NCBI GenBank assembly: GCA_017465475.1
Contig: JAFTWC010000035.1
Location: 1 to 64,000, forward strand
Direction: 5' to 3'
DNA length: 64,000 bases
DNA from: Lachnospiraceae bacterium
GTDB taxonomy: Bacteria > Bacillota > Clostridia > Lachnospirales > Lachnospiraceae
A model generated the notes under the pieces. It had not been told where the DNA came from. It saw only the letters and a program-made list of their open reading frames with translations, and did not search any database. Shown here in pieces: positions 237-64,000 of this stretch. The position numbers and the translations under genes were made by a program. How positions within the stretch are numbered: the stretch's first letter is position 1; every line of letters begins with the position of its first letter.

Positions 237-1910
237 ATGGAATATTTTGTGTTTGGTGCGGTGGTAGTTTTATTCCTGATAGGAAAGGGAATGTACGACA
301 AAAAGAAATATAAGGCGCGAATTCGAAGGATGCTGGCAGAAGAGTTCGGAACTGTCTCCGAAGAGGAATATACATCAGAAAAACTGGAGGCAATAAAAAG
401 TTATTATAATGCCACAAAAAGAAAGAATTATGATGTTGATGATATTACATGGAATGATTTGGAACTGGATGATATATATATGGTCATGAACCGTACGGTC
501 AGTGCCATGGGTGAAGAATATTTATATGCAATGCTTCGCAAACCGGAGTTCGATCCTTCGGAGATGAAAGAAAGGGAACGGATTATTTCATTTTTTTTAC
601 AACAGGCTGAAAAACGCGTGAATGTACAGGAAGCGTTGTATCAAATCGGAAAAAACAGACGGTATTCGGTATATGAATGCATGAATTATATTAAGGAAAT
701 CAAAAGAGAATCCAATGTTATGCATATTCTTTCGGCGCTTGGATTAATCGGTGCAATTGTGTTTGCCTTTCTTATGCCGAAGTTTGGCGTGATTGCTACT
801 TGCGTTGTTGTAACCTACAATCTGACGTCTTATATGAAGCGGAAAGGAGAACTGGATGCGTATTTGAGTTCTGTGACGTATTTGATTCGCCTTCTTTACG
901 CAGCGGAAGATGTTGCAAAGCTTGATGTGCCGGAGCTTTTTTCTTATATAGAGAGGATGAAGGACATTAATAAACATTTTGCAGCCTTTAAACGTAATTT
1001 TTGGATTATCGGAAGTAGAAAACCTACGGGAGATATGATGGAGATGCTTGTGTCTTATCTTCGGATGTTGTTTCATATCGATTTGATTAAGTTTAATCGC
1101 ATGTTAAAGATTTATGATAAGCATGTGGAAAAATTAAACGAGCTTTATGAAGTTGTGGGCTATTTAGATTCTCTTTGTGCAGCGGCATCTTTCAGAGCCT
1201 TGTTAGGAAGTGACGGCTATTGTGCTCCGGAGCTTTTGGACAATCCTACACCGAGTTATGAAGCAGAAGGGTTATATCATCCGCTTTTGGACAATCCGGT
1301 GACAAATTCCATAAAAGCAAGCCGGAGTGTTTTGCTAACCGGTTCCAATGCATCGGGAAAATCCACGTTTTTAAAGTCCGTGGCCCTCAATGCGATTTTA
1401 GCACAGACAATTTATACCGTAGCTGCAAAATCCTATCGTGCATCCTATTTCCAGGTGCTTTCTTCCATGGCACTTCGGGATAATATGCAAAATAACGAAA
1501 GTTACTTCATTGTGGAAATAAAATCCTTAAGGCGTATGTTTGAGGCAGCAAAAGCGCCGGTTTGCACCTTATGTTTTGTGGATGAAGTACTTCGTGGCAC
1601 CAATACGGTGGAGCGAATCGCTGCGTCCCGTGAGGTTTTATCCGGTCTTGCGACTGCCGGAAGAACAATCTGCTTTGCGGCAACCCATGATATTGAATTG
1701 ACCTATTTATTGGAAAAAGATTGTGACAACTATCATTTCGAAGAAACCGTAACGGATGATAAAGTTGAATTTGATTATTTGTTGCACGAAGGACGTGCAA
1801 CTTCCCGGAACGCTATTAAACTTTTGCGAATGTTGGGCTATCCGGCGGATGTTATAGAACGTGCCGAAACAACAGCGGAGCATTTTTTGCAGACCGGTGA
1901 GTGGAGTTAA
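237..1910 (+). CDS. MutS-family DNA-binding ATPase with membrane segments
   Basis: This 557-residue protein has a C-terminal MutS ATPase domain. The Walker A motif is GSNASGKST (about residue 368) and the Walker B region is CFVDEVLRGTNT. A His follows in FAATHD. The N-terminal mismatch-recognition and connector domains of true MutS are absent. The N terminus has one hydrophobic stretch (about residues 3-17), and a second hydrophobic region lies near 160-200, so it may sit in the membrane. This fits the 'MutS-related' family found in Clostridia. Substrate and role are not known to me. It is followed after 18 bases by rnhA and then mutS, which suggests a DNA-maintenance operon. Confidence 0.8.
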   Translation: MEYFVFGAVVVLFLIGKGMYDKKKYKARIRRMLAEEFGTVSEEEYTSEKLEAIKSYYNATKRKNYDVDDITWNDLELDDIYMVMNRTVSAMGEEYLYAMLRKPEFDPSEMKERERIISFFLQQAEKRVNVQEALYQIGKNRRYSVYECMNYIKEIKRESNVMHILSALGLIGAIVFAFLMPKFGVIATCVVVTYNLTSYMKRKGELDAYLSSVTYLIRLLYAAEDVAKLDVPELFSYIERMKDINKHFAAFKRNFWIIGSRKPTGDMMEMLVSYLRMLFHIDLIKFNRMLKIYDKHVEKLNELYEVVGYLDSLCAAASFRALLGSDGYCAPELLDNPTPSYEAEGLYHPLLDNPVTNSIKASRSVLLTGSNASGKSTFLKSVALNAILAQTIYTVAAKSYRASYFQVLSSMALRDNMQNNESYFIVEIKSLRRMFEAAKAPVCTLCFVDEVLRGTNTVERIAASREVLSGLATAGRTICFAATHDIELTYLLEKDCDNYHFEETVTDDKVEFDYLLHEGRATSRNAIKLLRMLGYPADVIERAETTAEHFLQTGEWS

Positions 1911-1928
1911 AACGAAAGGAGTTATTTT

Positions 1929-2408
1929 ATGAAAGTAACTATGTATACAGATGGTGCGGCAAGAGGAAACCCTGACGGACCGGGCGGGTATGGTACCGTA
2001 CTTTCTTGTGTCGTTGGCGGAGAGGAGCATATCAGAGAGTATTCCGGCGGTTATGTTCGAACCACAAATAATCGAATGGAACTGATGGCGGCGATTATCG
2101 GCTTTGAAAACTTAACAAAGCCCTGTGAAGTGGATGTGTATTCCGATTCCCAGTATCTTGTGAAGGCATTTAATGAACACTGGCTGGAGGGGTGGATTAA
2201 AAAAGGATGGAAGCGTGGAAAAAATGAACCGGTGAAAAATGTGGACCTTTGGATGCGACTTTTAGTGGCAATGAAGCCCCATACGGTACAGTTTTTCTGG
2301 GTAAAGGGACATGCCGGTCATCCGCAGAATGAACGTTGTGATGTACTTGCTACCACCGCTGCCGACGGAGACCATTTGATGATTGATGAGGGGTTGGAGG
2401 AAGCATAA
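1929..2408 (+). CDS. rnhA: Ribonuclease HI
   Basis: This protein cleaves the RNA strand of RNA:DNA hybrids. At 159 residues it has the usual type 1 length. The four acidic active-site positions are visible: D in YTDGAARGNP, E in NRMELMAAI, D in YSDSQYLV and D in NERCDVLA. The conserved His is in KGHAGHPQN. The start has a good RBS (gaaaggag, nine bases upstream). It lies between two MutS-family genes, which fits a DNA replication and repair operon. Confidence 0.95.
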   Translation: MKVTMYTDGAARGNPDGPGGYGTVLSCVVGGEEHIREYSGGYVRTTNNRMELMAAIIGFENLTKPCEVDVYSDSQYLVKAFNEHWLEGWIKKGWKRGKNEPVKNVDLWMRLLVAMKPHTVQFFWVKGHAGHPQNERCDVLATTAADGDHLMIDEGLEEA

Positions 2409-2455
2409 AAATTTGAGATATCCTTTTGAAACATGTCAAAAGGCTAGGAGGAACC

Positions 2456-5131
2456 ATGGATAAGGCTACTTATGAGAAATTGACGCCTATGATGCAGCAT
2501 TATTTGGATACCAAGGATGCATACGGCGATTGTATATTGTTTTACAGATTGGGTGATTTTTACGAAATGTTTTTTGAGGATGCGGTGACGGTATCCAGAG
2601 AATTGGAATTGACCCTGACGGGAAAAAGCTGTGGGTTGGAAGAGCGTGCGCCTATGTGCGGTGTGCCGTTTCATGCGGCAGAAACCTATCTCAATCGTTT
2701 GGTAGGAAAAGGCTACCGTGTGGCAATCTGTGAACAGGTAGAAGATCCGAAGTTGGCCAAGGGGATGGTGAAACGTGAGGTTGTGCGGGTAGTAACACCG
2801 GGTACCAATACAAATCTTCAGAATTTGGACGAGGGCAAGAACAATTACCTCATGGGCATTTACTATAGTGGAGATTCTTTCGGTATCTCTGCAGTAGACG
2901 TAACCACCGGTGATTATTATGTAACGGAAGTGGATGAGGCTCGTAAGGCGGCGGATGAAATTACAAAGTTTGCACCGTCAGAGCTTATTTGTAATGCCTC
3001 TTTTGCCATGAGCGGTGTGGATTTGGAAGAGTTTAAGAGCCGATATCATATGGCTGTAGAGACTTTAGAAGAGCGGTTCTTTGACGGAGGTGCATGTGAG
3101 CGGTCCCTTATGAGTCATTTTAAGGTGGGCACTCTTGCAGGACTGGGGCTTACGGATTTTCCGCTTGGAGGGATTGCCGCCGGAGCGGTGATGCAATATT
3201 TAAAAGAGACTCAGAAGACATCCATGGAGCATATTACCCAGATTCAGACCTATGTTACCGGAAAATATATGATTTTAGACAGCAGTACCAGACGTAATTT
3301 AGAGCTGACGGAAACTCTTCGGGAAAAGCAAAAGAGAGGGTCTTTGCTTTGGGTGCTGGATAAGACGAAGACAGCTATGGGAGCCAGACTGCTTCGTAGC
3401 TGTATCGAACAACCGTTACTGGAGAAGGATGAAATTAATGACCGGCTTTCTGCGGTGGAAGAATTGAAGGAAAACGGTATTACAAGAGCTGAGTTACGGG
3501 AGTATTTAAATGCGGTGTATGATTTGGAACGTTTACTCAGCCGTGTAACGTATCGTTCCGCGAATCCGAGGGATATGCTGGCATTCCAGACTTCTCTTTC
3601 CATGCTTCCGCCGATTAAGACGTTGCTGACGGATTTGGAAGCACCTCTTTTGAAAAAAATTGATGACGAATTGGATACGCTGTCGGATTTGAGCGCCCTC
3701 ATCGAGGCGTCTATTGATCCGGAAGCTCCGCTTACGGTAAAAGAAGGCAGTATTATTAAAAGCGGGTACAACGAAGAGGTAGACCGCTTGCGTTTGGCAA
3801 AAACCGAAGGAAAAGGCTGGCTTGCCGAGGTAGAGGAACGGGAGCGCGAGGCAACCGGTATTAAAAATTTAAAGATTAAGTTTAACCGTGTGTTCGGCTA
3901 TTATTTTGAGGTGACCAATTCCTACAAAGATATGGTGCCGCAGACTTGGATTCGAAAGCAGACGTTAACCAATGCGGAGCGTTATACCACGGAGGAGTTA
4001 AAAAAGTTAGAAGAGGATATTTTGGGGGCGGAAGATAAGTTATTTTCCTTGGAATATTCTTTATTTGCAGAGATTCGAGAGGCCGTAGCCGCAGAGGTGG
4101 TGCGAATTAAGCAGACAGCGAAAGCGGTAGCTTGGCTGGATCTGTTTGCATCCTTGGCTACCGTAGCGGAGAAGAATCGTTTTGTACGTCCGGAAATCAA
4201 TAAAGAAGGTGTCTTACATATCGTGGGAGGCAGACATCCGGTAGTGGAACAGATGATTCCCAACGATATGTTTGTGGAAAATGATACTTATCTTGACAAT
4301 CAGGACAAGCGTATTTCCATTATTACCGGTCCGAATATGGCAGGTAAATCCACTTATATGCGTCAGACGGCTCTTATTGTGCTGATGGCACAGCTCGGCA
4401 GCTTTGTGCCGGCAAAAGAGGCTAAAATCGGCATTTGTGACCGTATCTTTACCCGCGTAGGTGCTTCGGATGACCTGGCTTCCGGCCAGAGTACGTTTAT
4501 GGTGGAAATGACGGAAGTGGCGAATATTTTACGGAATGCAACAAAGAATAGTTTACTTATTTTGGATGAAATCGGCAGAGGTACCAGTACTTTTGACGGT
4601 CTTAGTATCGCGTGGGCAGTGGTAGAGCATATTGCGGACCCGAAGCTTATTGGTGCTAAGGCGCTTTTTGCAACCCATTATCATGAGTTGACAGAACTGG
4701 AAGGAAAGCTTCCTGCCGTACATAATTATTGTATAGCCGTAAAAGAGCAGGGGGAGGATATTGTATTCCTTCGTAAAATTATTCCGGGCGGAGCGGATAA
4801 AAGCTACGGGATCCAAGTGGCTAAGCTTGCAGGCGTACCGGGTGCTGTGTTGGCCCGGGCAAGAGAAATTGCCGATGAACTTGCGGAACGTGATATTACG
4901 AAAAATGCTGCGCAGATTGAGGTAAAACAGGGGGGGAAGACCGGTGGCAGGACAAAGTCCGGTAAAGGAGAGAAAGATGCCTTAAACGGTCAAATAACCA
5001 TGTTTGGTACGGAAGAGTCCGACGATGCAGGCATTGCAAAGACCCTTCGTGAACTGAATTTGTCCATGATGACCCCGATTGATGCGCTGAATCTGCTTTA
5101 TAAGCTGCAGGAACAGGCAAAAAATTTATAG
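2456..5131 (+). CDS. mutS: DNA mismatch repair protein MutS
   Basis: MutS recognises mismatches and small loops and recruits MutL. I chose the ATG at 2456 because an aggagg RBS sits at 2446-2451; an in-frame TTG at 2426 lacks one. The 891-residue product has the N-terminal Phe-x-Glu mismatch motif in GDFYEMFFEDA. It also has the core and clamp domains, Walker A GPNMAGKST, and Walker B LDEIGRGTSTFDG. The tail carries a basic linker and a C-terminal helix typical of the tetramer or MutL-binding region. mutL follows at 6686. Confidence 0.97.
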   Translation: MDKATYEKLTPMMQHYLDTKDAYGDCILFYRLGDFYEMFFEDAVTVSRELELTLTGKSCGLEERAPMCGVPFHAAETYLNRLVGKGYRVAICEQVEDPKLAKGMVKREVVRVVTPGTNTNLQNLDEGKNNYLMGIYYSGDSFGISAVDVTTGDYYVTEVDEARKAADEITKFAPSELICNASFAMSGVDLEEFKSRYHMAVETLEERFFDGGACERSLMSHFKVGTLAGLGLTDFPLGGIAAGAVMQYLKETQKTSMEHITQIQTYVTGKYMILDSSTRRNLELTETLREKQKRGSLLWVLDKTKTAMGARLLRSCIEQPLLEKDEINDRLSAVEELKENGITRAELREYLNAVYDLERLLSRVTYRSANPRDMLAFQTSLSMLPPIKTLLTDLEAPLLKKIDDELDTLSDLSALIEASIDPEAPLTVKEGSIIKSGYNEEVDRLRLAKTEGKGWLAEVEEREREATGIKNLKIKFNRVFGYYFEVTNSYKDMVPQTWIRKQTLTNAERYTTEELKKLEEDILGAEDKLFSLEYSLFAEIREAVAAEVVRIKQTAKAVAWLDLFASLATVAEKNRFVRPEINKEGVLHIVGGRHPVVEQMIPNDMFVENDTYLDNQDKRISIITGPNMAGKSTYMRQTALIVLMAQLGSFVPAKEAKIGICDRIFTRVGASDDLASGQSTFMVEMTEVANILRNATKNSLLILDEIGRGTSTFDGLSIAWAVVEHIADPKLIGAKALFATHYHELTELEGKLPAVHNYCIAVKEQGEDIVFLRKIIPGGADKSYGIQVAKLAGVPGAVLARAREIADELAERDITKNAAQIEVKQGGKTGGRTKSGKGEKDALNGQITMFGTEESDDAGIAKTLRELNLSMMTPIDALNLLYKLQEQAKNL

Positions 5132-5203: not shown

Positions 5204-5971
5204 ATGATGTATCGTAATGCATATAAAAAAATAAAAGTAAAAATGCAGAATGCCTTAACAGAGTTTAAAATTCTTCTTCGTTCCATACCGGCAACGGTGG
5301 TGACACTTTTTGTTGTGAGCGTGGTTTGTATGAATCTGCTTGCAAATAAGACACTGTTACAGCTGGACTGGATTGCGTTAGATGGCGGTATTTTGATTTC
5401 ATGGCTTTCTTTTATGTGTATGGATATTATTACAAAACATTTCGGGCCAAAGGCATCGAACCGGATTTCCATTCTTGCGGTGGGGATTAATTTGCTTACC
5501 TGTCTTATCTTTTTTGTGGCAAGTGCAATTCCGTCCAATGCGGGAGATTACAGTGCCTTTGACGGGATTTTCGGAGGAACGTGGTTTATTTTGTTGGGAA
5601 GTACCATTGCTTTTTTGGCATCTGCGGTGGTAAATAATACGTTAAACCAAATTATAGGGAATGGGTTTCGGAAAAATCCGGACGGACGTCTTGCTTATGT
5701 GACAAGAACCTATATATCTACATTTATCGGGCAGTTTCTCGATAATTTTATTTTCTCACTTATTGTGTTTGTAGGGTTTGCACCAATCTTTTGGGACGGT
5801 TTTTGCTGGACGGTACTGCAATGCGCAACCTGTGCGTTGACAGGAGCGGTTGCGGAATTGATTATGGAGATTGTGTTTTCGCCTATCGGATATCGGATTA
5901 CAACGAAATGGAAGTCCGAGTCGGTTGGGAAAGATTATTTTGAATTTATGGAAAGGGAGAAGCAATCATGA
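5204..5971 (+). CDS. VUT-family membrane transporter (YhhQ-like)
   Basis: This 255-residue polytopic protein has about six hydrophobic segments, and a MDIITKHFGPKA stretch typical of the VUT family. Members of this family are linked to uptake of queuosine precursors. The substrate here is inferred from the family only. I saw no preQ1-riboswitch-like sequence upstream that would support it. The start has a strong RBS (aaaggagaaggaaag). Its stop overlaps the next gene's start by four bases (ATGA), so the two are translationally coupled. Confidence 0.8.
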   Translation: MMYRNAYKKIKVKMQNALTEFKILLRSIPATVVTLFVVSVVCMNLLANKTLLQLDWIALDGGILISWLSFMCMDIITKHFGPKASNRISILAVGINLLTCLIFFVASAIPSNAGDYSAFDGIFGGTWFILLGSTIAFLASAVVNNTLNQIIGNGFRKNPDGRLAYVTRTYISTFIGQFLDNFIFSLIVFVGFAPIFWDGFCWTVLQCATCALTGAVAELIMEIVFSPIGYRITTKWKSESVGKDYFEFMEREKQS

Positions 5972-6621
5972 TAGTTTTAATTACAGGAACATCTCAGGGA
6001 ATCGGAAAAGCAATCGCGGAACTCTTTCTGAGAGAAGGACATACCGTAATCGGAATCGACAGACAGGTACAAAGTATCGAGCACGAGGCATATACCCATT
6101 ATGTATGTGATGTTCGGGATATAGAAAAACTTCCTGTTACAGAGGATATTGAAATACTGGTGAACAATGCAGGAACCCAGAATGAAGCGGATATTGACAT
6201 AAATTTAAAGGCCTTGATTGGGATTACGGAACGTTACGGAGTTCAGCCAAACATTAAGTCGGTGCTTAACATTGGTTCCGCCAGTGCCCATACGGGAGCC
6301 GAATTTCCGGAATACTGCGCCAGCAAAGGCGGTATTTTGGCGTATACAAAGAATGTAGCCATGCGTATTGCAAAGTATGGCGCCACTTGTAACAGCCTGG
6401 ATCCCGGCGGGGTACTGACTCCACTGAATGAGTGTGTGATGACTGATCCAAGGCTTTGGGCTCAAATTATGGAGGAAACACCGTTAAAGCGGTGGGCAAC
6501 ACCGGAAGAAATTGCAGAATGGGCTTATTTCCTGACCGTGACAAATAAATTTTGTACGGGACAGAGTATTTTGGTAGACGGCGGAGAAGCGATTAACTAT
6601 CACTTTGTTTGGAAGGATTAA
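5968..6621 (+). CDS. Short-chain dehydrogenase/reductase
   Basis: This 217-residue protein is a classical SDR with an N-terminal Rossmann fold (TGTSQGIG). It has the NNAG motif, a catalytic Ser in NIGSASAH and the Tyr-x-x-x-Lys pair in YCASKGG. The C-terminal FCTGQSILVDGG is typical of SDRs that resemble 3-oxoacyl reductases. It is somewhat shorter than the usual 240-250 residues. The substrate cannot be told. It is coupled to the upstream transporter by a four-base overlap. Confidence 0.85.
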   Translation: MIVLITGTSQGIGKAIAELFLREGHTVIGIDRQVQSIEHEAYTHYVCDVRDIEKLPVTEDIEILVNNAGTQNEADIDINLKALIGITERYGVQPNIKSVLNIGSASAHTGAEFPEYCASKGGILAYTKNVAMRIAKYGATCNSLDPGGVLTPLNECVMTDPRLWAQIMEETPLKRWATPEEIAEWAYFLTVTNKFCTGQSILVDGGEAINYHFVWKD

Positions 6622-6685
6622 GATTCGGATTTTTAAGGAGTTTCTATAAAATGGTTTGTAAGTAAGGGTTGAAAGGAGCAAACAC

Positions 6686-8803
6686 ATGGGCAAGATTGCT
6701 TTACTGGATAAAAATACCATTGATAAGATTGCGGCAGGTGAAGTGGTGGAACGTCCGGCTTCCGTGGTAAAGGAATTGACGGAAAATGCCATTGATGCCG
6801 GTGCGAATATGATTACCGTGGAATTAAAGGAAGGCGGAAGCGGGCTCATTCGTATTACGGACAATGGATCAGGTATTGCGGCGGAGGACGTAAAAACCGC
6901 ATTTTTGCGCCATTCTACCAGTAAAATCCGTACCGTGGAGGATTTGCTTACCGCAGGGAGCCTTGGGTTCCGCGGAGAGGCTTTATCCAGTATTTCTGCT
7001 GTAGCTCAGGTGGAACTGATTACCAAGACCAAGGATTCTTTTGTGGGAACCAGATATCTGATTGACGGTGGTGTGGAACAGGCGATGGAAGAGGCCGGTT
7101 GCCCGGACGGAACCACATTTTTAATTCGAAATTTGTTCTATAACGTACCGGCGCGCCGGAAGTTCTTAAAATCTGCCATGTCAGAGGCTGGACTTTGCTC
7201 GGAACTGATGCAGCGTATGGCACTTTCCAGACCGGAGATTGCGTACAAGTTTATTAATAACGGAAAAATCGTGCTTCAAACTTCCGGAAACGGAAATTTA
7301 AAAGAAGTAATTTATCAGATTTACGGGCGGGAGATTACCGCTAATTTGTTAGAAGTAAATCATATTGAAGAAAGTGCCGGAATTTCTGTGGCGGGTTTTA
7401 TCGGAAAACCGGTGGTGTCCAGAGGAAATCGAAATTACGAGAACTATTTTATTAACGGACGATACATTAAGAGCAGTGTGGTCAGTAAGGCCATTGAAGA
7501 AGCGTATCGTTCCTATATGATGCAACATAAGTATCCTTTTACGGCATTACATATTTCCATGGATACAGCTATGATTGATGTCAATGTGCATCCGACAAAG
7601 CTGGAGGTGCGGTTCTCCGACAGTGAAGCAGTGTATTATGCCGTATACCATGCGGTACGGGATGCATTGGCCGGAAAGAACATGATTCCGCAGGTGGGAT
7701 TCGGAAAAGAAGAAAAGTCTACACCTGTCGAATTGCGGAAGAAAGAGTCGAGACCGGAACAGTTTGAGACGGTACGAATAGCACAACAGGCAGGGCAGAG
7801 ACCGGCGGCAGGAGTAACTGTACATACGGAAGAAAAAACAGCAAGAACCGTGGCACCCGTTTTTAAACAAGCAGAAAAGACAGAGAAAATCATAGAAGAG
7901 CCTCCGGTAAAACCGTTGCAAACAGACAGAGAAACCGCAGAAACAAAGGGAAACAAGATAGTTGAACCGATAAAGGAAATTATTACAGAGAATAGAAGCG
8001 GCAATGTACTTAGGGAAGAACAGGCACCGTATAAAGCTAAGAAAGAGGACAAGACAGATACTGATTCTACAAAAGTAGAAAAGCCGAGCTTTGAAGAAGA
8101 TTTAAACCTTTTTCAAGAAAAAACAGAGCAAAAGGAGCAAAAGGTTCCGCAAGTGAAGGAGCAGGAATCCGTTGCTTTTGTACAGGAGCAACTGGAACTT
8201 CCGAATCTCTTAAGTGATGAGAATAAGAAGGAATATCGTATCGTTGGTCAGTTGTTTGCCACCTATTGGCTCATTGAAATGGATGGCCAGTTGTTTATGA
8301 TTGACCAGCATGCGGCTCATGAAAAGATTTTGTTTGAGCAGACCATGAAACGCATCCGGGAAAAAGAAATGCTGACCCAGCAGATTGCACCGCCATATAT
8401 TGCCAGTCTTTCTCTTAGAGAGGAAGAGGTATTACAGGCACAGGCTGATGTGCTGCGGCACTTAGGCTTTGAATTTGAGCATTTCGGCGGTAGGGATTAT
8501 AAGGTAACCGGTGTCCCGGTAGATTTATGCGGACTTACCGGTGGTGAATTGTTTATGCAGCTTTTGGACGAACTGGTGGCGGAAAAGCTCCACGGAAGCC
8601 CGGAAGTTTTGGTGGAAAAGGTAGCCTCCATGTCTTGTAAGGCGGCGGTAAAGGGAAATATGGTACTGTCTGAGACGGAAGCCAAGGCAATGATTGATTT
8701 ATTGCTTACTCTGGACAATCCGTACCATTGTCCTCACGGAAGACCGACCACCATATCCATGACAAAGCAGGAAATCGAGAAGAAATTTAAGAGAATTGTG
8801 TAA
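6686..8803 (+). CDS. mutL: DNA mismatch repair endonuclease MutL
   Basis: MutL couples mismatch recognition to strand removal. The N-terminal GHKL ATPase has NAIDAGA, DNGSGI and GFRGEAL motifs. The C-terminal domain contains the metal-binding endonuclease motif DQHAAHEKILFE and a late CPHGRP motif. This is therefore the nicking type found in bacteria lacking MutH. A long low-complexity charged linker (about residues 345-490) joins the halves. The RBS is gaaaggag. Downstream, miaA would be the usual next gene, but about 6.7 kb of accessory genes intervene. Confidence 0.97.
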   Translation: MGKIALLDKNTIDKIAAGEVVERPASVVKELTENAIDAGANMITVELKEGGSGLIRITDNGSGIAAEDVKTAFLRHSTSKIRTVEDLLTAGSLGFRGEALSSISAVAQVELITKTKDSFVGTRYLIDGGVEQAMEEAGCPDGTTFLIRNLFYNVPARRKFLKSAMSEAGLCSELMQRMALSRPEIAYKFINNGKIVLQTSGNGNLKEVIYQIYGREITANLLEVNHIEESAGISVAGFIGKPVVSRGNRNYENYFINGRYIKSSVVSKAIEEAYRSYMMQHKYPFTALHISMDTAMIDVNVHPTKLEVRFSDSEAVYYAVYHAVRDALAGKNMIPQVGFGKEEKSTPVELRKKESRPEQFETVRIAQQAGQRPAAGVTVHTEEKTARTVAPVFKQAEKTEKIIEEPPVKPLQTDRETAETKGNKIVEPIKEIITENRSGNVLREEQAPYKAKKEDKTDTDSTKVEKPSFEEDLNLFQEKTEQKEQKVPQVKEQESVAFVQEQLELPNLLSDENKKEYRIVGQLFATYWLIEMDGQLFMIDQHAAHEKILFEQTMKRIREKEMLTQQIAPPYIASLSLREEEVLQAQADVLRHLGFEFEHFGGRDYKVTGVPVDLCGLTGGELFMQLLDELVAEKLHGSPEVLVEKVASMSCKAAVKGNMVLSETEAKAMIDLLLTLDNPYHCPHGRPTTISMTKQEIEKKFKRIV

Positions 8804-57686: not shown

Positions 57687-59732
57687 TTATTTATTATCCT
57701 CTTCCGTTGATTCGAAAGTTTCGGATTCTTCCAATACTGCTTCATACTCCTCCAACTGCTCTTCTAATCGCTCATTTTCAGGGAAATCTTCCGAGCCGTC
57801 GTTTAAAATATCAACAGCACCTTCATAATCTTCTTTCTCTGCACGTTTTTCTGCCATAGCCAGGATATCGTCAATTTCTTCCTTGTTATTGTTTTCTTCC
57901 AGTATATCTTCAATATACGGAACGGCAAAGTATGCTACTCCCGCTCCGATTCCGATAAGTAAAAGAAGAATAATTACAACGACCGGCCACTTAGACTTCT
58001 TTTTACCAAATGTATTTTTCTGTGTCGGTTGCGGTTCGGTTTGTAAAAAGGCTTCTGATTTTCTGACCGCCGATGTCCGGTCAAGTTCATCAATTGTAAT
58101 GGTTTTGCGTACTGTAGTGGTTTTATCAAGTTCTTCCGATATCGGAAAACTTTTTCTTACCGTGGTAGTTTTGTCCTCTTCCACAGGTGCTGCTTCTTTG
58201 TTTAAATCCCTGATTACCGGAGGTTCCGGTGCCTGTGGCACATTTGACACCGGTGGAACAATTCCTGGCTGAAGCAAGGTTGACAGTGCATTTTTTAGTG
58301 CTTTTGGGACAGCAAATCGCTTTGCAGGGTCAGCACTACATGCCGATAAAATCAATGCTGCCATTTTTGAAGAGGCATTACACGGCGCAGGTAACGTTTC
58401 TCCGCGTAAACGACGCTTTAAAGCATCCTTAAACTCTTCGGAATCCAAAGATAAGGTGTTGCTTTCACACAACGGGAAACGATTCTTATTTAATAACTGA
58501 TACAATAATATTCCCAAGGCATAGATGTCGGTCTTGGTATTATATACTCCGTCATGAAATGCTTCCGGAGATGCATATCGATAAGAACCAAGTTGTGTAA
58601 TTCCGTTTGAAATATACTGCATTTTGCCGGAAATTCCGTAATCAGCCAATAAAACAGTACCGTCTTCTGTTACGAAAAGAGATTCCGGTCGGATATCTCC
58701 GTGAACCATTCCTGCATCCGTATAGGACTCTAAAGCAGAACAAATCACCATTCCTAAACGAGCAGCTTCATGTTCGGTATATTCTTTTTCGGCCATAAGA
58801 TCGGTAAACGGACGCAACGGTTCCGTGAGAACATAAATTTCCCAAGAAGCATTGTCCAGTTCCACTACTTTATATTCTTTTATCGTGATAAAACCGGAGG
58901 TTCCGGACAAACGTTTTATGAATTCCAGCTTTTCAACCAAAGCATTTAAAACTTCTTTTTCCTGTGAGACAGAAATCACTCTGACAGTCGCAGGATTTGT
59001 TACTTGATACTCTGTACAAAAAGCCTCGTATGGACTGACCTTTACCTCCTCAATCGCTTCCGGTTCACCATAGTAGCAATAATAAATCATGCTTGAAGTG
59101 AATACCAGCTTGGACTGAGGAAGAAAAATAATATCCTTCTCGTGAAGCGGTGTTGAGTTTATTAAGTGTTTACCGTTTACTATAACTCCGTTGGTACTGC
59201 CGTTATCAAAAATGTGGTATTGATTATTTTTCCATGTGATTACTGCATGGCAGGAAGACACACTTCTGCTCTGGAGTCGAATGGTACAATTTACATCCCG
59301 TCCGATGGTAATCTGAGGAATTCCTTTGATGGAACATTCCATCCATTCTGCATTGGAATCCGGTTTGGATACAACAAACAACACCCCGGTTACCAATGTA
59401 TCGTTTTCCGCATCAATTCGGATGCAGTCTTTGTCGGAAAGTTCTACAGACTTTACTACCAAAGAATTATGTACCAGTCCGTTCAAACTGCCGGTATCTT
59501 CCATATACCACTTTTCATTGGATAGAATTATTCTTCCGTGGGTTCTGGATGCCAAACGTGACGTAAGCACAATATCATTATGCGTATCCCGTCCAAAGGT
59601 AATTACACTTTTGTTAAAAGCTAATAAAGAAACGGTAATCGGTGCAGTTTCAGCATCAAATACGGTAAGTAGCAAATCCTCTCCTACGACGGGTTGGTTT
59701 ACAATATTAATTGTCTTATCTAAATCATCCAT
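57687..59732 (-). CDS. FHA-FHA-kinase-like membrane protein
   Basis: This 681-residue protein has two FHA domains (about residues 40-95 and 140-195, ITFGRDTHNDIVL and ITIGRDVNCTIRL). A kinase-like domain follows (about 240-490). It has HGDIRPES for the catalytic loop, DYG for the metal loop and ASPEAF. The glycine-rich loop is missing, the usual VAIK-type Lys looks replaced, and the loop Asn is Ser. So it may be inactive or atypical. A repeat linker (about 517-560), one membrane segment (about 582-604) and a TPR-like outer tail follow. Confidence 0.82.
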   Translation of the reverse strand: MDDLDKTINIVNQPVVGEDLLLTVFDAETAPITVSLLAFNKSVITFGRDTHNDIVLTSRLASRTHGRIILSNEKWYMEDTGSLNGLVHNSLVVKSVELSDKDCIRIDAENDTLVTGVLFVVSKPDSNAEWMECSIKGIPQITIGRDVNCTIRLQSRSVSSCHAVITWKNNQYHIFDNGSTNGVIVNGKHLINSTPLHEKDIIFLPQSKLVFTSSMIYYCYYGEPEAIEEVKVSPYEAFCTEYQVTNPATVRVISVSQEKEVLNALVEKLEFIKRLSGTSGFITIKEYKVVELDNASWEIYVLTEPLRPFTDLMAEKEYTEHEAARLGMVICSALESYTDAGMVHGDIRPESLFVTEDGTVLLADYGISGKMQYISNGITQLGSYRYASPEAFHDGVYNTKTDIYALGILLYQLLNKNRFPLCESNTLSLDSEEFKDALKRRLRGETLPAPCNASSKMAALILSACSADPAKRFAVPKALKNALSTLLQPGIVPPVSNVPQAPEPPVIRDLNKEAAPVEEDKTTTVRKSFPISEELDKTTTVRKTITIDELDRTSAVRKSEAFLQTEPQPTQKNTFGKKKSKWPVVVIILLLLIGIGAGVAYFAVPYIEDILEENNNKEEIDDILAMAEKRAEKEDYEGAVDILNDGSEDFPENERLEEQLEEYEAVLEESETFESTEEDNK
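58059..58184 (-). repeat. Threonine motif repeat in the kinase-like protein
   Basis: Three copies of an acidic-x-D-K/R-T-x-x-V motif occur at residues about 519, 534 and 549 (EDKTTTVRK, ELDKTTTVRK, ELDRTSAVRK), spaced 15 residues apart. They lie between the kinase-like domain and the membrane segment. Confidence 0.85.
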
Positions 59733-59769
59733 ATGTATTCGTTCCTTTTATGGTGTTGTTCCCTTAGTT

Positions 59770-62088
59770 CTATGCTTTCTCTTTCTTGATTTTCCCAAGG
59801 AAAAGTCTTGCTAAAATCAAGAACAATACGGTAAATCCAAGTAAAATCCCCCAGGAAGTAAACATATGGGAGGTAGTGTACTCAAAGAAGTCCTCTACTT
59901 CGTGAGGTACCATAACCCCTTCTTGCTGTAACTTCAACGGCAAATCATTTAAATTAGCTGTGGTACCGTATCCTTCCATACTCCATCGACATACTGCAAT
60001 CCAGGAGATCATTTCCGTAGCGCCATCTAACTTAAAGATTAACCCGGAGAACAGAATCTGCGGCATTAACAGAATCGGAGCAACCGTCATTGCCCGGTCT
60101 GCATTGGTAAACAGTGCGGACACCAATAAGCCCATGGCTGCAGAGGATAACGCGGTTAAGAAGGTGGTAAGTAAAATTTCCAAATAAGGAATCCACATGA
60201 CGCCCTCTTCCGGAAGTCCCACCAACAGTGAAAATACACCGGTGACCATTAAACTTTGAATCAAACAAAGACCACCCAAAACAATAATTTTGGAAGAAAC
60301 ATAGGCACTTAAGGAAAGGCCTGTCATATATTCACGTTTCATAATGGTACGTTCTTTACATATTTCCTGAATGGCATTTAACATACCAATCCAGAAACCG
60401 GAACAGGATAACGCAAACAAAAGACTTTTGGTCATTTCGTATTGTTCGTACTGTTGATCATCCGCCACAAGAGAAATCAATGCAGCAAGTAACGGTGCCT
60501 GTATCAAAAGAAGTAACAATCGTTGTCTGTCATTTACCACCAGCTTAATATAGCGCGAGCATAACACTCCCAACTGGCGGAATCTGTTTTTCTTGATTTT
60601 TCCCTTCTTTTGGTCGGAAGCCCGATGTACTCCCGTACTTGCAACGGTAGCGGAATATTTTCTGCTCCACTCTACGGCATGATCCGTTATCATGTTGTAA
60701 ACATCTACCACATCGGATACTCCGAAGAATTTCAATGCTTCTTCGTAGGAACTGCAACAACACAAATTACCGCCCTTGCCCATAAAGACAATTTTATCGC
60801 ATAGCTTTAACTGTAACGTACTGTGAGTAACCAAGATAACGGTTTTTCCGTTGTTAGCCATTTCCCGTAATGAAAGCATCAAGTTACGTTCTGTACCCGG
60901 GTCGAGACCGGAAGCCGGCTCATCAAGGAACAACAAGTTCGGGTCGGATAATAACTCTACTGCAATGCTGGCACGTTTTCTTTGACCGCCACTGAGTGCT
61001 TTGATTAAACTATTCTTCTTTTCTGTTAATTCCACCAATTCGATTGCACGATGAATGGCTGCCTCTCGCTCAGCGGAAGAAATATCCTTCGGTAAACGAA
61101 GTTTTGAGGTATACAATAACATATCGTAAAGTGTAAGGTTATCATATACAATATCCGACTGCGGAACATAACCGATAATCTTCTTTAGGAAATCAAAGTT
61201 CTGGTACAAATTGATTCCGTTAATATAGACCTCTCCGTGAGAAGGTTTTAAGTAACCGCATAAACAGTTTAAGATTGTGGACTTACCTGCGCCGGAACCA
61301 CCGATAATAGCCACCAGCTCTCCCGGTTTGATGTTTAGATTTACATGATTGCAGGTAATAAATTTCTTTCTGCCCTTTCCGCGTTCGATAACAATATCCG
61401 TTGCATCTACGGAAATACCGCTCTTATAGCAACAATAATGAATTGCAGTTGACGTAAAAATAATTTTAGAGTTGGTAATGTTAATTACATCTTTTTCATG
61501 TAACCGAACTTTTCCCGTGATTTTTTTGTTGTTTATCACAACTCCGTTGGTGCTTCCGTTGTCGAAAATATAGAAAGCACCGTTTTCTTTGACAATTGTG
61601 GCATGCACCTTGGAAACACTGATATGCGGCAACACAACCGTACATCTGCTATCACGTCCGATGGTCAAATGAGTTAGATTTGCCACCGGTAAGGTTGCCC
61701 ATTTGTTTACGGAGTCAGACGATGATACAACAAATAATACACCTTCGGAAATGGTTTCTACACCGTCATCAATACGGACAAAATCACCGTCCGTAATCCA
61801 TTTGGAAGTTATATTGGCATTGTTGTAGATTAAACCGTTCAAACTTCCGCAGTCTTCCATAATCCATTTTCCGTTTTGATAAGAAAACTGTCCATGGTTT
61901 CGTGACACTACATGAGAATGTAATACGATGTCATTTTGCTCGTTACGCCCGAATGTAATCGTTTTCTTTCCAAATGAAGCAAGGGAAATAATACGCGGGG
62001 CCTGGGTTGCATCAAATACTGTTACAATTAAGTCATTACTTTCAATTTGTTCCGTTTTAAATCTTACCGTTCTATTCAGCTCGTCCAT
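59770..62088 (-). CDS. FHA-FHA-ABC transporter (Rv1747/ABCG-like)
   Basis: This 772-residue protein has two N-terminal FHA domains (ITFGRNEQNDIVL and LTIGRDSRCTVVL). An ABC ATPase follows, with Walker A GGSGAGKS (about 263-270), signature LSGGQR (about 365) and Walker B LLFLDEP. The C-terminal ABC2-type membrane domain has about six segments from residue 520. Mycobacterial Rv1747 has the same order of domains and is regulated by a neighbouring kinase. The exported substrate is unknown. Confidence 0.88.
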   Translation of the reverse strand: MDELNRTVRFKTEQIESNDLIVTVFDATQAPRIISLASFGKKTITFGRNEQNDIVLHSHVVSRNHGQFSYQNGKWIMEDCGSLNGLIYNNANITSKWITDGDFVRIDDGVETISEGVLFVVSSSDSVNKWATLPVANLTHLTIGRDSRCTVVLPHISVSKVHATIVKENGAFYIFDNGSTNGVVINNKKITGKVRLHEKDVINITNSKIIFTSTAIHYCCYKSGISVDATDIVIERGKGRKKFITCNHVNLNIKPGELVAIIGGSGAGKSTILNCLCGYLKPSHGEVYINGINLYQNFDFLKKIIGYVPQSDIVYDNLTLYDMLLYTSKLRLPKDISSAEREAAIHRAIELVELTEKKNSLIKALSGGQRKRASIAVELLSDPNLLFLDEPASGLDPGTERNLMLSLREMANNGKTVILVTHSTLQLKLCDKIVFMGKGGNLCCCSSYEEALKFFGVSDVVDVYNMITDHAVEWSRKYSATVASTGVHRASDQKKGKIKKNRFRQLGVLCSRYIKLVVNDRQRLLLLLIQAPLLAALISLVADDQQYEQYEMTKSLLFALSCSGFWIGMLNAIQEICKERTIMKREYMTGLSLSAYVSSKIIVLGGLCLIQSLMVTGVFSLLVGLPEEGVMWIPYLEILLTTFLTALSSAAMGLLVSALFTNADRAMTVAPILLMPQILFSGLIFKLDGATEMISWIAVCRWSMEGYGTTANLNDLPLKLQQEGVMVPHEVEDFFEYTTSHMFTSWGILLGFTVLFLILARLFLGKIKKEKA

Positions 62089-62128: not shown

Positions 62129-64000
62129 CTATTTTTCTTTGTAGAACTTGTGATCTGTGTAATTCTTTGTTAAATCGGTTGCAATTTCATAGGAATCACC
62201 AAAAGTAATGGATGTCTGGTACATTCCGGTGATGCGCCAATTATTTGTATCCTTCATGTTGACATTTCTTAAAGAAGCACAATTAGAAAATGCATACGGC
62301 TGAATTTCTTTCAGTGTTTTCGGAAGAGTAAATTCTTTGATTTCTTTATTGTAGTAGAATGCATACTCGCCGATAACTTCCAGTCCTTCATTAAAAGAAA
62401 CATCTCTCATATTCTTACAGTAATAAAACGCATGACTTCCGATTTTGGTTGTCTTTTTTCCTTTAAATGATAAAGAAATAATGTTTGCAAAACCATATTC
62501 GGAACCGTTAAAAATATTGTCCGGAATTACTTTTACCTCTTCGCCGATTTTTAAAGCAATTCCTTTGCTAGCTTGTCCGACGCTGGCAAAAGCCCCCGCT
62601 TTATCTAAGGAACAATTGATGGCATTATACTGGATAAATTCCAATCCGGTCATATTATTAAATGCATTTTTGTCAATGAAGGTTACTGTAGTCGGGATAG
62701 ATAATAAGGTTGCTCCCGAACAATTTTCAAAAGCAGACTTAGAAATTGCAGTAACACCTTCACCGATATTTACGGAACCAAGATTTCTACAGTTATAGAA
62801 TGCAGATTCTCCAATGGTTTCCACCGCTGTTCCCGCAAACTTTAAGGTGGACAGATTAATAAAGGAGGAATCTGTTCCGGCAAATAAACGTGCAGGAATG
62901 TTTTTCACTTTTTCACCGATTGTAAGTTTGATTCCTGTGCTGTTTTTACCGGCATCCTGAATCCAGCCGGAAGCCGGAATGCTTACATTTGCCACATTGT
63001 ACTGCAAATCCGTAAGACCGTACATATTGTTAAACGCACCTTCTGCAATGGTGGTAACCGTAGACGGTATTACTAAGGATTTTGCCCCGGAGCAATTATC
63101 GAATGCGAAACTATCGATTTTTGTCACGCCCTCCGGAAGTTTTATTTCTTTCAGGTTTTTACAGTTCTGGAATGCCTGGACACCGATTGTTTTTACTTTT
63201 TTACCTTTAAACGTTACGGAAGAAAGGTTTACATAAGCACTTGCATCGCCAAAGAACAAACCATCCGGAATTTGTTTTACTTTAGAGCCAATGGTTAACG
63301 CAATTCCCTTTCCGCTTTGTCCGGCAGATTTAAAGGTTCCGTTAAAGTAACATGTGCTGTTGATTGCATTGTATTCAATTGTATTCAGTTTTTTCATGTT
63401 ACTGAACGCGTTATCTCCGATATGTATAATCGTAGACGGAATCACCACTTTTGTAATCTTTGATAAGCCTTTGAATGCTTCTTTTTCAATTTCAGCCACT
63501 GTGATTCCTTCGTATTCCGAAGGAATAATGATTTCGGTTCCCGTTGCGCTTCCGATACCGGTTACGATGTAATAATCTCCCGGATTGTAGTATTCATAAC
63601 TTAATCCCTTTGTATAAGACACCGAACCACAAGAACAAACATAATTCTCGTCATAACTATGGGTGTGAGCTGCCGGTTTCGGTGTTGCGGTAGCCTTTGG
63701 CTTTGGAGTACCGGTAGCCTTCGGTTTCGGTGTGTTAGTTGCTTTCGGTGCCTCTGTCATTGCCGGTGCTTCCGTAGCTTCCGGAGCCTCCGTTATTTCA
63801 GGTTCTTCGGTGGTCTTCGGCACATCGGTGGCTTTTGGAGCTTCCGTCACTGCCTTTGGCGGCTCGGTGGCTTTGGGTGCATCGGTTGCCTTTACAGATT
63901 CGGTTGGAGTAGGCTTTTGAGCCTCCTCTGTTTGTTCTTCTAACTTTTCTTTATAGTATTCGAGCTTTTCCTCTAACTTATCAGAATCCGGGTATTTATC
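62129..64000 (-). CDS. BspA-type leucine-rich repeat protein, 5' end outside the window
   Basis: The minus-strand frame stays open to the right edge, so the start is missing; 623 residues are visible. The first part is a charged helix and then a low-complexity stretch rich in TEAPKAT and TPKPKAT. Then come BspA-type LRR_5 repeats. Three super-repeats of 124 residues follow one another. The protein is probably exported or surface-bound, but the signal or anchor is not visible. Ligands are unknown. It follows directly upstream of the FHA-ABC gene. Confidence 0.8.
   Translation of the reverse strand, partial: DKYPDSDKLEEKLEYYKEKLEEQTEEAQKPTPTESVKATDAPKATEPPKAVTEAPKATDVPKTTEEPEITEAPEATEAPAMTEAPKATNTPKPKATGTPKPKATATPKPAAHTHSYDENYVCSCGSVSYTKGLSYEYYNPGDYYIVTGIGSATGTEIIIPSEYEGITVAEIEKEAFKGLSKITKVVIPSTIIHIGDNAFSNMKKLNTIEYNAINSTCYFNGTFKSAGQSGKGIALTIGSKVKQIPDGLFFGDASAYVNLSSVTFKGKKVKTIGVQAFQNCKNLKEIKLPEGVTKIDSFAFDNCSGAKSLVIPSTVTTIAEGAFNNMYGLTDLQYNVANVSIPASGWIQDAGKNSTGIKLTIGEKVKNIPARLFAGTDSSFINLSTLKFAGTAVETIGESAFYNCRNLGSVNIGEGVTAISKSAFENCSGATLLSIPTTVTFIDKNAFNNMTGLEFIQYNAINCSLDKAGAFASVGQASKGIALKIGEEVKVIPDNIFNGSEYGFANIISLSFKGKKTTKIGSHAFYYCKNMRDVSFNEGLEVIGEYAFYYNKEIKEFTLPKTLKEIQPYAFSNCASLRNVNMKDTNNWRITGMYQTSITFGDSYEIATDLTKNYTDHKFYKEK
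62330..63445 (-). repeat. Three 124-residue (372 bp) super-repeats
   Basis: IPST-type repeat starts occur at coordinates 63445, 63073 and 62701. Each unit includes I..NAF.NM..L, then VK.IP..LF and AF.NC. They are similar but not identical, so the duplications are old enough to have diverged. Confidence 0.75.

Follow-up and report, generated by a model that had tools for sequence, protein, structure and literature searches.

Among the closest described systems is that of Rv1747 and PknF in Mycobacterium tuberculosis, in which a tandem-FHA ABC exporter is operonic with a Ser/Thr kinase. Condensation of the Rv1747 FHA module is reported to be promoted by PknF phosphorylation and reversed by PstP (PMC9312465), and about 150 disordered residues lie between its FHA domains (PMC7761784). 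The phosphorylated juxtamembrane domain of PknB pairs with FhaA (PMC12077195), and in Mycobacterium the pseudokinase MviN presents phosphothreonine (pThr) to this FHA protein (PMC3601408). Self-binding is established for GarA/OdhI of Actinobacteria and DgcB of Bdellovibrio, and the DgcB FHA domain was described in complex with NSDNLEKpTSIVASDT, with a hydrophobic residue at -3, Glu at -2 and the +3 Val in a pocket (PMC6733907). In Bacillota, the type VII secretion system (T7SS) variants T7SSe and T7SSj encode a kinase, a PPM phosphatase and FHA proteins together (PMC11217815). The subject of this report is a gene cassette of a Lachnospiraceae bacterium (GenBank assembly GCA_017465475.1), located at and beyond the end of a stretch of 64,000 nucleotides (contig JAFTWC010000035.1, positions 1 to 64,000 of the forward strand; hereafter the window). 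It encodes a PP2C phosphatase, an intact transmembrane Hanks kinase, a 2xFHA-ABC exporter (P0002) and a 2xFHA-pseudokinase (P0001), in this order, and the last three share a short threonine motif. The favoured reading, with a probability of about 0.62, is that this motif serves a membrane signalling cassette as a phosphothreonine tag, which the kinase would write, the FHA domains would read and the PP2C phosphatase would erase, with the pseudokinase as a multivalent adaptor. The kinds of components are already known; the shared tag and the FHA-pseudokinase fusion look new. Among the matches listed in the open-access literature, most subscription papers being outside its scope, no description of this cassette of gut Clostridia or of its motif was found.

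Both FHA open reading frames (ORFs) were confirmed, at 57687-59732 (P0001, 681 amino acids) and 59770-62088 (P0002, 772 amino acids); these and all cassette features below lie on the reverse strand. On direct reading, AAGGA-like ribosome sites are present 5' of both starts. The first-pass annotation had described a pair of FHA proteins that both begin with MD[D/E]L[D/N][K/R]T, the D-K/R-T motif being repeated three times in the linker of the kinase-like protein, and each observation was borne out. P0001 begins with MDDLDKT and P0002 with MDELNRT. Exactly four [DN][KR]T sites are found in P0001, and their threonines are candidate phosphorylation sites: T7 (DLDKTINI, 59712..59714) and, in the 94-residue linker, T522 (EEDKTTTVRK, 58167..58169), T538 (ELDKTTTVRK, 58119..58121) and T553 (ELDRTSAVRK, 58074..58076). 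Three such sites in this linker were reached by 0.035% of 20,000 shuffles. The corresponding candidate in P0002 is T7 (ELNRTVRF, 62068..62070), at a position kept in many relatives. As the FHA tandems of P0001 and P0002 are homologous (46-47% identity), the N-terminal likeness of the two proteins does not count as evidence in its own right. The annotated pair is real but is not the whole extent of the system, as the run also contains an intact kinase and a PP2C gene, and the linker of the upstream kinase has five more related copies at T324, T338, T350, T363 and T376 (DLDATISIH, ADDATVSVH, NPDATVSIH, NPDATVAVQ and DLNATMAVH). Ten [DN]-x-T-x-x-[VIF] sites are thereby distributed over the three proteins; the same loose pattern occurs also inside folded domains of cassette proteins, for example at T150 of P0001, where it is meaningless.

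Relatives were gathered in a single scan, with P0002 as the query against genome contigs, which returned 65 loci, comprising 64 FHA-ABC relatives and one off-target ABC transporter (L106). Nearly all of the 64 loci are from metagenome-assembled genomes titled Clostridia or subgroups, and few are titled otherwise, e.g. Eggerthellales and Erysipelotrichaceae. Kinase and PP2C genes adjoin many of them. After five kinases without a detected transmembrane (TM) helix had been dropped, the 51 kinases provided 46 distinct juxtamembrane linkers from 37 loci. The strict form [DNE].T..V[RKHNQ] is present in 33 of these 46 linkers (mean 1.2 and maximum 7 in 1,000 shuffles), the looser [DNE].T..[VAGIL][RKHNQ] in 38 (shuffled mean 3.8, maximum 12) and [DN][KR]T in 25 (shuffled mean 5.0, maximum 14), while the reversed versions of the strict form and of [DN][KR]T occur in none. 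PASTA-kinase linkers from the same bacterial family, taken as a control, show the strict form in only 1 of 29. The shuffles, the reversed patterns and this control reject a chance origin of the motif. The commonest residues are Leu at -3, Asp or Asn at -2 and Lys or Arg at -1, followed after the Thr by Val, Thr or Ile, then Ser or Ala, Val at +3, Arg at +4 and Arg or Lys at +5. The motif is located chiefly in the catalytically intact kinases of the family.

These linkers bear also on the explanation that no phospho-tag exists and that a structural sequence, basic and juxtamembrane or of another kind, has been retained by common descent. In keeping with such an origin, most linker copies have R-[RK] at their end, close to a membrane helix, and the FHA tandems of the two window proteins are homologous. 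Thr and the acidic residue at -2 are nevertheless kept while the remaining linker is unalignable, and C-terminal to the motif the similarity is at the level of shuffled sequence (0.32 versus 0.30). The window kinase retains Thr and the +3 residue but has no basic run, and a Ser version is not enriched, being found in 3 of 46 linkers against a shuffled mean of 3.6. The same pattern is found, moreover, at N termini that are remote from any membrane, as well as in the unrelated downstream protein described below. Purely structural retention is for these reasons very improbable.

The N-terminal set consists of 61 FHA-ABC N termini from the 64 loci, L100 (split into separate frames) and L078 and L104 (start missing) being left out. 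Start codons were assigned by rule and are probably wrong in L054, L057 and L069. The sister form [DNE].T..[FYILV] was found in 38 of the 61 (shuffled mean 6.1, maximum 13; reversed 3), and [DN][KR]T in 24 (shuffled mean 2.2, maximum 8; reversed 0). The motif lies within the first residues of the proteins, in a short variable stretch ahead of FHA1. Thr is invariant in an alignment of 44 rows, which consists of 43 N termini chosen from the 61 plus the window protein; the invariance is valid for the chosen rows only, because 15 of the 18 dropped N termini lack the motif. In two exporters the N terminus carries a linker-like form, L074 (QATTSVRRAR) and L057 (EEATVRVKQA, upstream of the rule-assigned start). 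An FHA protein in L063 begins near LNETVRV.

According to another explanation, the threonines serve to tune the kinases, as sites of autophosphorylation or as substrate sites, and the FHA domains read other ligands. There is a precedent in pneumococcal StkP, whose juxtamembrane Thr is phosphorylated without any FHA domain (PMC12077195). The presence of the tag at FHA-ABC N termini and in the pseudokinase, with a hydrophobic +3 residue as in the solved FHA ligand, speaks against kinase autoregulation of this kind, which is judged quite unlikely.

Further carriers of the motif are encountered among neighbouring genes. An uncharacterized protein family of about 430 amino acids is encoded directly 3' of the FHA-ABC gene in 18 of the 61 loci (e.g. 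L093:12298-13611). Its members have a [DE]xTxxx-R motif, with Thr, Asp or Glu at -2 and Arg at +4 each present in 18 of 18, within a locally variable stretch. No Pfam match was obtained for the member from L105 and no NCBIfam match for that from L093. A search of the window genome, run without a positive control, did not find this family, and the pseudokinase occupies its place there. Zinc-ribbon membrane proteins with the tag in a cytoplasmic linker are found in L062 (15550-17178, two copies) and L069 (10874-12808, six copies, in near-identical repeats of about 37 amino acids); the kinase linker of L062 itself is without the motif.

The FHA domains are the candidate readers of such a tag. In 77 distinct tandems, including both window proteins, the FHA1 pocket retains Arg in 77, Ser in 72 and Asn in 76, and the FHA2 pocket retains Arg in 75, Ser in 76 and Asn in 74. 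An earlier count on 86 tandems, which included repeat fetches of the same gene, gave the same picture. P0001 possesses every residue of the pThr pocket. These cassette domains differ from the EssC FHA domains of T7SSb, which are described as having no pThr site (PMC11217815). The best solved relatives by sequence are GarA for FHA1 and an Rv1747 FHA domain for FHA2.

Comparison with the known systems reveals both likenesses and differences. The DgcB ligand NLEKpTSIV (PMC6733907) and the cassette sites DLDKTINI and ELDKTTTV all have a hydrophobic -3, an acidic -2 and a hydrophobic +3 residue, and DgcB and GarA/OdhI have an N-terminal Thr motif just ahead of an FHA domain with an intact pThr pocket, as the cassette proteins do. 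These, however, are single-FHA proteins (GarA/OdhI being small), whereas the cassette has FHA tandems on membrane proteins of 681 and 772 amino acids and displays the tag on the kinase linker and on unrelated proteins as well. Rv1747 resembles P0002 in being a tandem-FHA ABC exporter operonic with a Ser/Thr kinase, but its inter-FHA stretch of about 150 residues (PMC7761784) compares with about 35 in P0002, and in the cassette the tag occupies the N terminus and the kinase linker, with a pseudokinase partner and a PP2C gene in the same run. With MviN-FhaA and PknB-FhaA the cassette shares a pseudokinase or kinase linker as the proposed presenter of pThr to an FHA protein; the difference is that P0001 unites FHA tandem, pseudokinase and tag array on one polypeptide, and that the proposed cassette reader is an exporter. 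An ABC exporter as putative reader also distinguishes the cassette from T7SSe and T7SSj, as the main text of PMC11217815 nowhere uses the term "abc transporter". Relatives of the cassette kinase in L194, L197 and L207 lie near long proteins with an N-terminal FHA domain, read as FtsK/EssC-like, as in the T7SS variants.

The likeness to GarA/OdhI and DgcB suggests a further explanation, a switch in cis only, in which the phosphorylated N-terminal Thr would bind the protein's own FHA1 to open or close the exporter and the kinase-linker tags would serve a separate purpose. The established self-binding of those proteins and the position of the motif ahead of FHA1 are in favour of this switch. Against it, the motif is found also in proteins that have no FHA domain, namely in the kinase linkers, the zinc-ribbon proteins and the downstream family of about 430 amino acids. 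By locus (n=37), the motif is present in both kinase and exporter in 18, in the kinase only in 10, in the exporter only in 8 and in neither in 1, and the kinase-only and exporter-only loci argue in the same direction. A switch acting solely in cis is therefore considered unlikely.

P0001 (57687..59732) consists of two FHA domains, a kinase-like domain, the 94-residue linker, a single TM helix and, at the C terminus, a short domain, as identified by Pfam and by alignment with 52 kinases including the upstream kinase. FHA1 (59415..59603) and FHA2 (59127..59312) both match PF00498 and each has the pocket residues R, S, H and N. The kinase-like domain (residues 253-481, 58290..58976, PF00069) has no glycine loop, and in it the VAIK Lys is replaced by Arg, HRD is changed to HGD and the catalytic-loop Asn to Ser, with the Asp of DYG retained. 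On this alignment the domain is a pseudokinase, and it could act as a scaffold. The juxtamembrane linker with its three motif copies extends over residues 486-579 (57996..58277), with boundaries set by a script rule. By blastp score, the FHA tandem of P0001 is nearest to that of P0002 (47% identity) and its kinase domain to that of the upstream kinase (39% identity), each by a small margin; the C-terminal part scores about as well against the upstream kinase as against kinases of L093, L049 and L043. P0001 is likely a fusion assembled from neighbouring genes. No second FHA-kinase fusion was found among the matches listed in 61 genomes, 397 family genomes scanned with the FHA tandem and 391 class genomes, nor in the P0002-scan loci; these samples overlap, and at most three candidates per genome were scored in the class set. 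Second kinases with degenerate catalytic residues are encoded downstream of the exporter in L083 (3058-5472, HKNIKPDS) and L084 (13945-17085, HRDIKPES and DFT), and their linkers have Met in place of the tag Thr (YDKMVGV and YQTMVAA).

P0002 (59770..62088) is an exporter half-molecule that, by Pfam, holds in a single chain two FHA domains, an ABC ATPase and an ABC-2 membrane domain, which is the Rv1747-type make-up. FHA1 (about residues 44-106, 61771..61959) and FHA2 (142-204, 61477..61665), both PF00498, are close together, without a long disordered linker between them. They are followed by the ATPase domain (PF00005, ABC_tran; residues 247-392, 60913..61350) and the membrane domain (PF01061, ABC2_membrane; residues 504-700, 59989..60579).

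The intergenic gaps along the four-gene run are 25, 40 and 37 bp, which makes a single transcript from PP2C phosphatase to pseudokinase likely. The kinase gene (62129-65416 of the contig, 1095 amino acids) is co-directional with the exporter gene at the 40-bp gap and is cut by the window, which contains only its C-terminal part (62129..64000), a TPR-like segment and a BspA leucine-rich repeat (LRR) ectodomain; the kinase domain and the five motif copies are beyond the window end. The TPR-like segment, so named by the authors' own reading, has no Pfam match. The full architecture is kinase domain, linker, TM helix and BspA-type LRR ectodomain, and on direct reading the kinase domain looks intact (GKGSYG, AAIKV, HRDIKPEN and DFG). 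The ectodomain is not of the PASTA type known from PrkC and StkP, and the PASTA-kinase profile NF033483 of NCBIfam was missed by both proteins (143.4 bits for the upstream kinase and 99.4 bits for P0001, against a cut-off of 450 bits). The PP2C phosphatase gene is located upstream of the kinase gene, at 65442-66302 of the contig.

From what can be read directly, namely gene order, domains, the degeneration of the pseudokinase, the conservation of the motif and of the FHA pockets and the occurrence of the motif in unrelated cassette proteins, we infer the following scheme, which includes phosphorylation of the tags, their binding by FHA domains, a clustering of the proteins and a direction of export control. 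The upstream transmembrane kinase would sense an extracellular signal and phosphorylate the tagged threonines of three proteins: those in the juxtamembrane linker of the kinase itself, that at the N terminus of the FHA-ABC exporter, and those that the pseudokinase carries at its N terminus and in its linker. The resulting pThr would be bound by the FHA domains of exporter and pseudokinase, whereby all three proteins would be drawn together in a single complex and the exporter would be controlled; PP2C would undo the phosphorylation. The pseudokinase, which has four candidate tags along with two FHA domains and a membrane anchor of its own, may serve as a multivalent adaptor.

A broader form of the scheme is put forward tentatively, at somewhat short of even odds. 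It holds that the tag is a cassette-wide phosphothreonine address code, used by at least four non-homologous families (kinase linker, FHA-ABC N terminus, zinc-ribbon membrane protein and downstream protein of about 430 amino acids) with shifting number and placement; the FHA-pseudokinase would be a derived hub that both reads and displays tags, and exporters would be clustered multivalently under a sensor kinase.

The first-pass annotation had suggested that the motif could be phosphorylated and bound by FHA domains of either protein and that the kinase-like protein may be a scaffold, and this interpretation has partial support. Conservation of the motif in homologues, which the first-pass annotation had named as a check, was upheld by its enrichment in kinase linkers and FHA-ABC N termini, yet several points weigh against a phosphothreonine tag shared by the cassette. 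The strict form is lacking in 13 of 46 kinase linkers, and 23 of 61 N termini are without a counted form. Shuffles leave shared ancestry in place, and all relatives came through one query. The upstream kinase of the window has His or Gln, not Arg, at +4. A single FHA domain need not read both forms, since the N-terminal +3 residue is aromatic or Ile/Leu while linkers have Val at +3 and then Arg. The cassette is also patchy, being found in 7 of the 61 genomes of relatives and in 22 of 397 family genomes, the window genome included; the 61-genome set has nine other genomes of the genus, all without it.

The distribution of the motif elsewhere in the window genome is narrow. The linker form was sought with a degenerate DNA pattern, which misses AGY serines and other variants; it gave 18 matches against 6 for its backward control. 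On translation, the plausible carriers were the two cassette proteins and a vWA-TM-FHA protein, and the rest fell in ordinary or doubtful ORFs, so that a large tag network is not apparent from this pattern. In the other kinase regions of this genome (L125-L130, read by eye with the L129 kinase left out), no motif was seen except DKTVIV at the membrane edge of a PrkC-type kinase. The vWA-TM-FHA protein (L003:8255-9880, contig C68) adjoins a PP2C gene and carries LDDTVVLG and GDETIAVRRQ just before its FHA domain; by eye, four of its relatives retain other [DE]xT-type sites before the FHA domain.

More distant kinases of the class were represented by 25 linkers, of which none has the strict form and 7 have [DN][KR]T; several, by eye, carry [DE]xTx[SG][IVM]F. 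When this alternative form was sought beside FHA domains in 11 genomes with 18 FHA loci, only L231 (DEGTVVIG, adjoining a kinase that has DEGTVVLN) and a single FHA-ABC-like protein in L220 and L234 (GFEKTLVF) looked convincing. Applied to other kinase-FHA pairs, the idea yielded a single good pair and otherwise mostly nothing, and co-variation is not claimed. In L203, the linker of a kinase (1484-3685) has DEGTVVLN and the neighbouring FHA protein (5448-6872) has DEGTVVIG, a second and differently spelled shared Thr motif observed in a single case.

The role of the juxtamembrane domain in bacterial Ser/Thr kinases has been termed elusive (PMC12077195). Since many Clostridia encode the tag together with a candidate writer, a candidate reader and a candidate eraser, the docking idea is testable with short peptides and purified FHA domains. 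If it is true, the tag would yield candidate substrates, including the downstream family of about 430 amino acids, for which the members tested, one per library, have no match in Pfam or NCBIfam.

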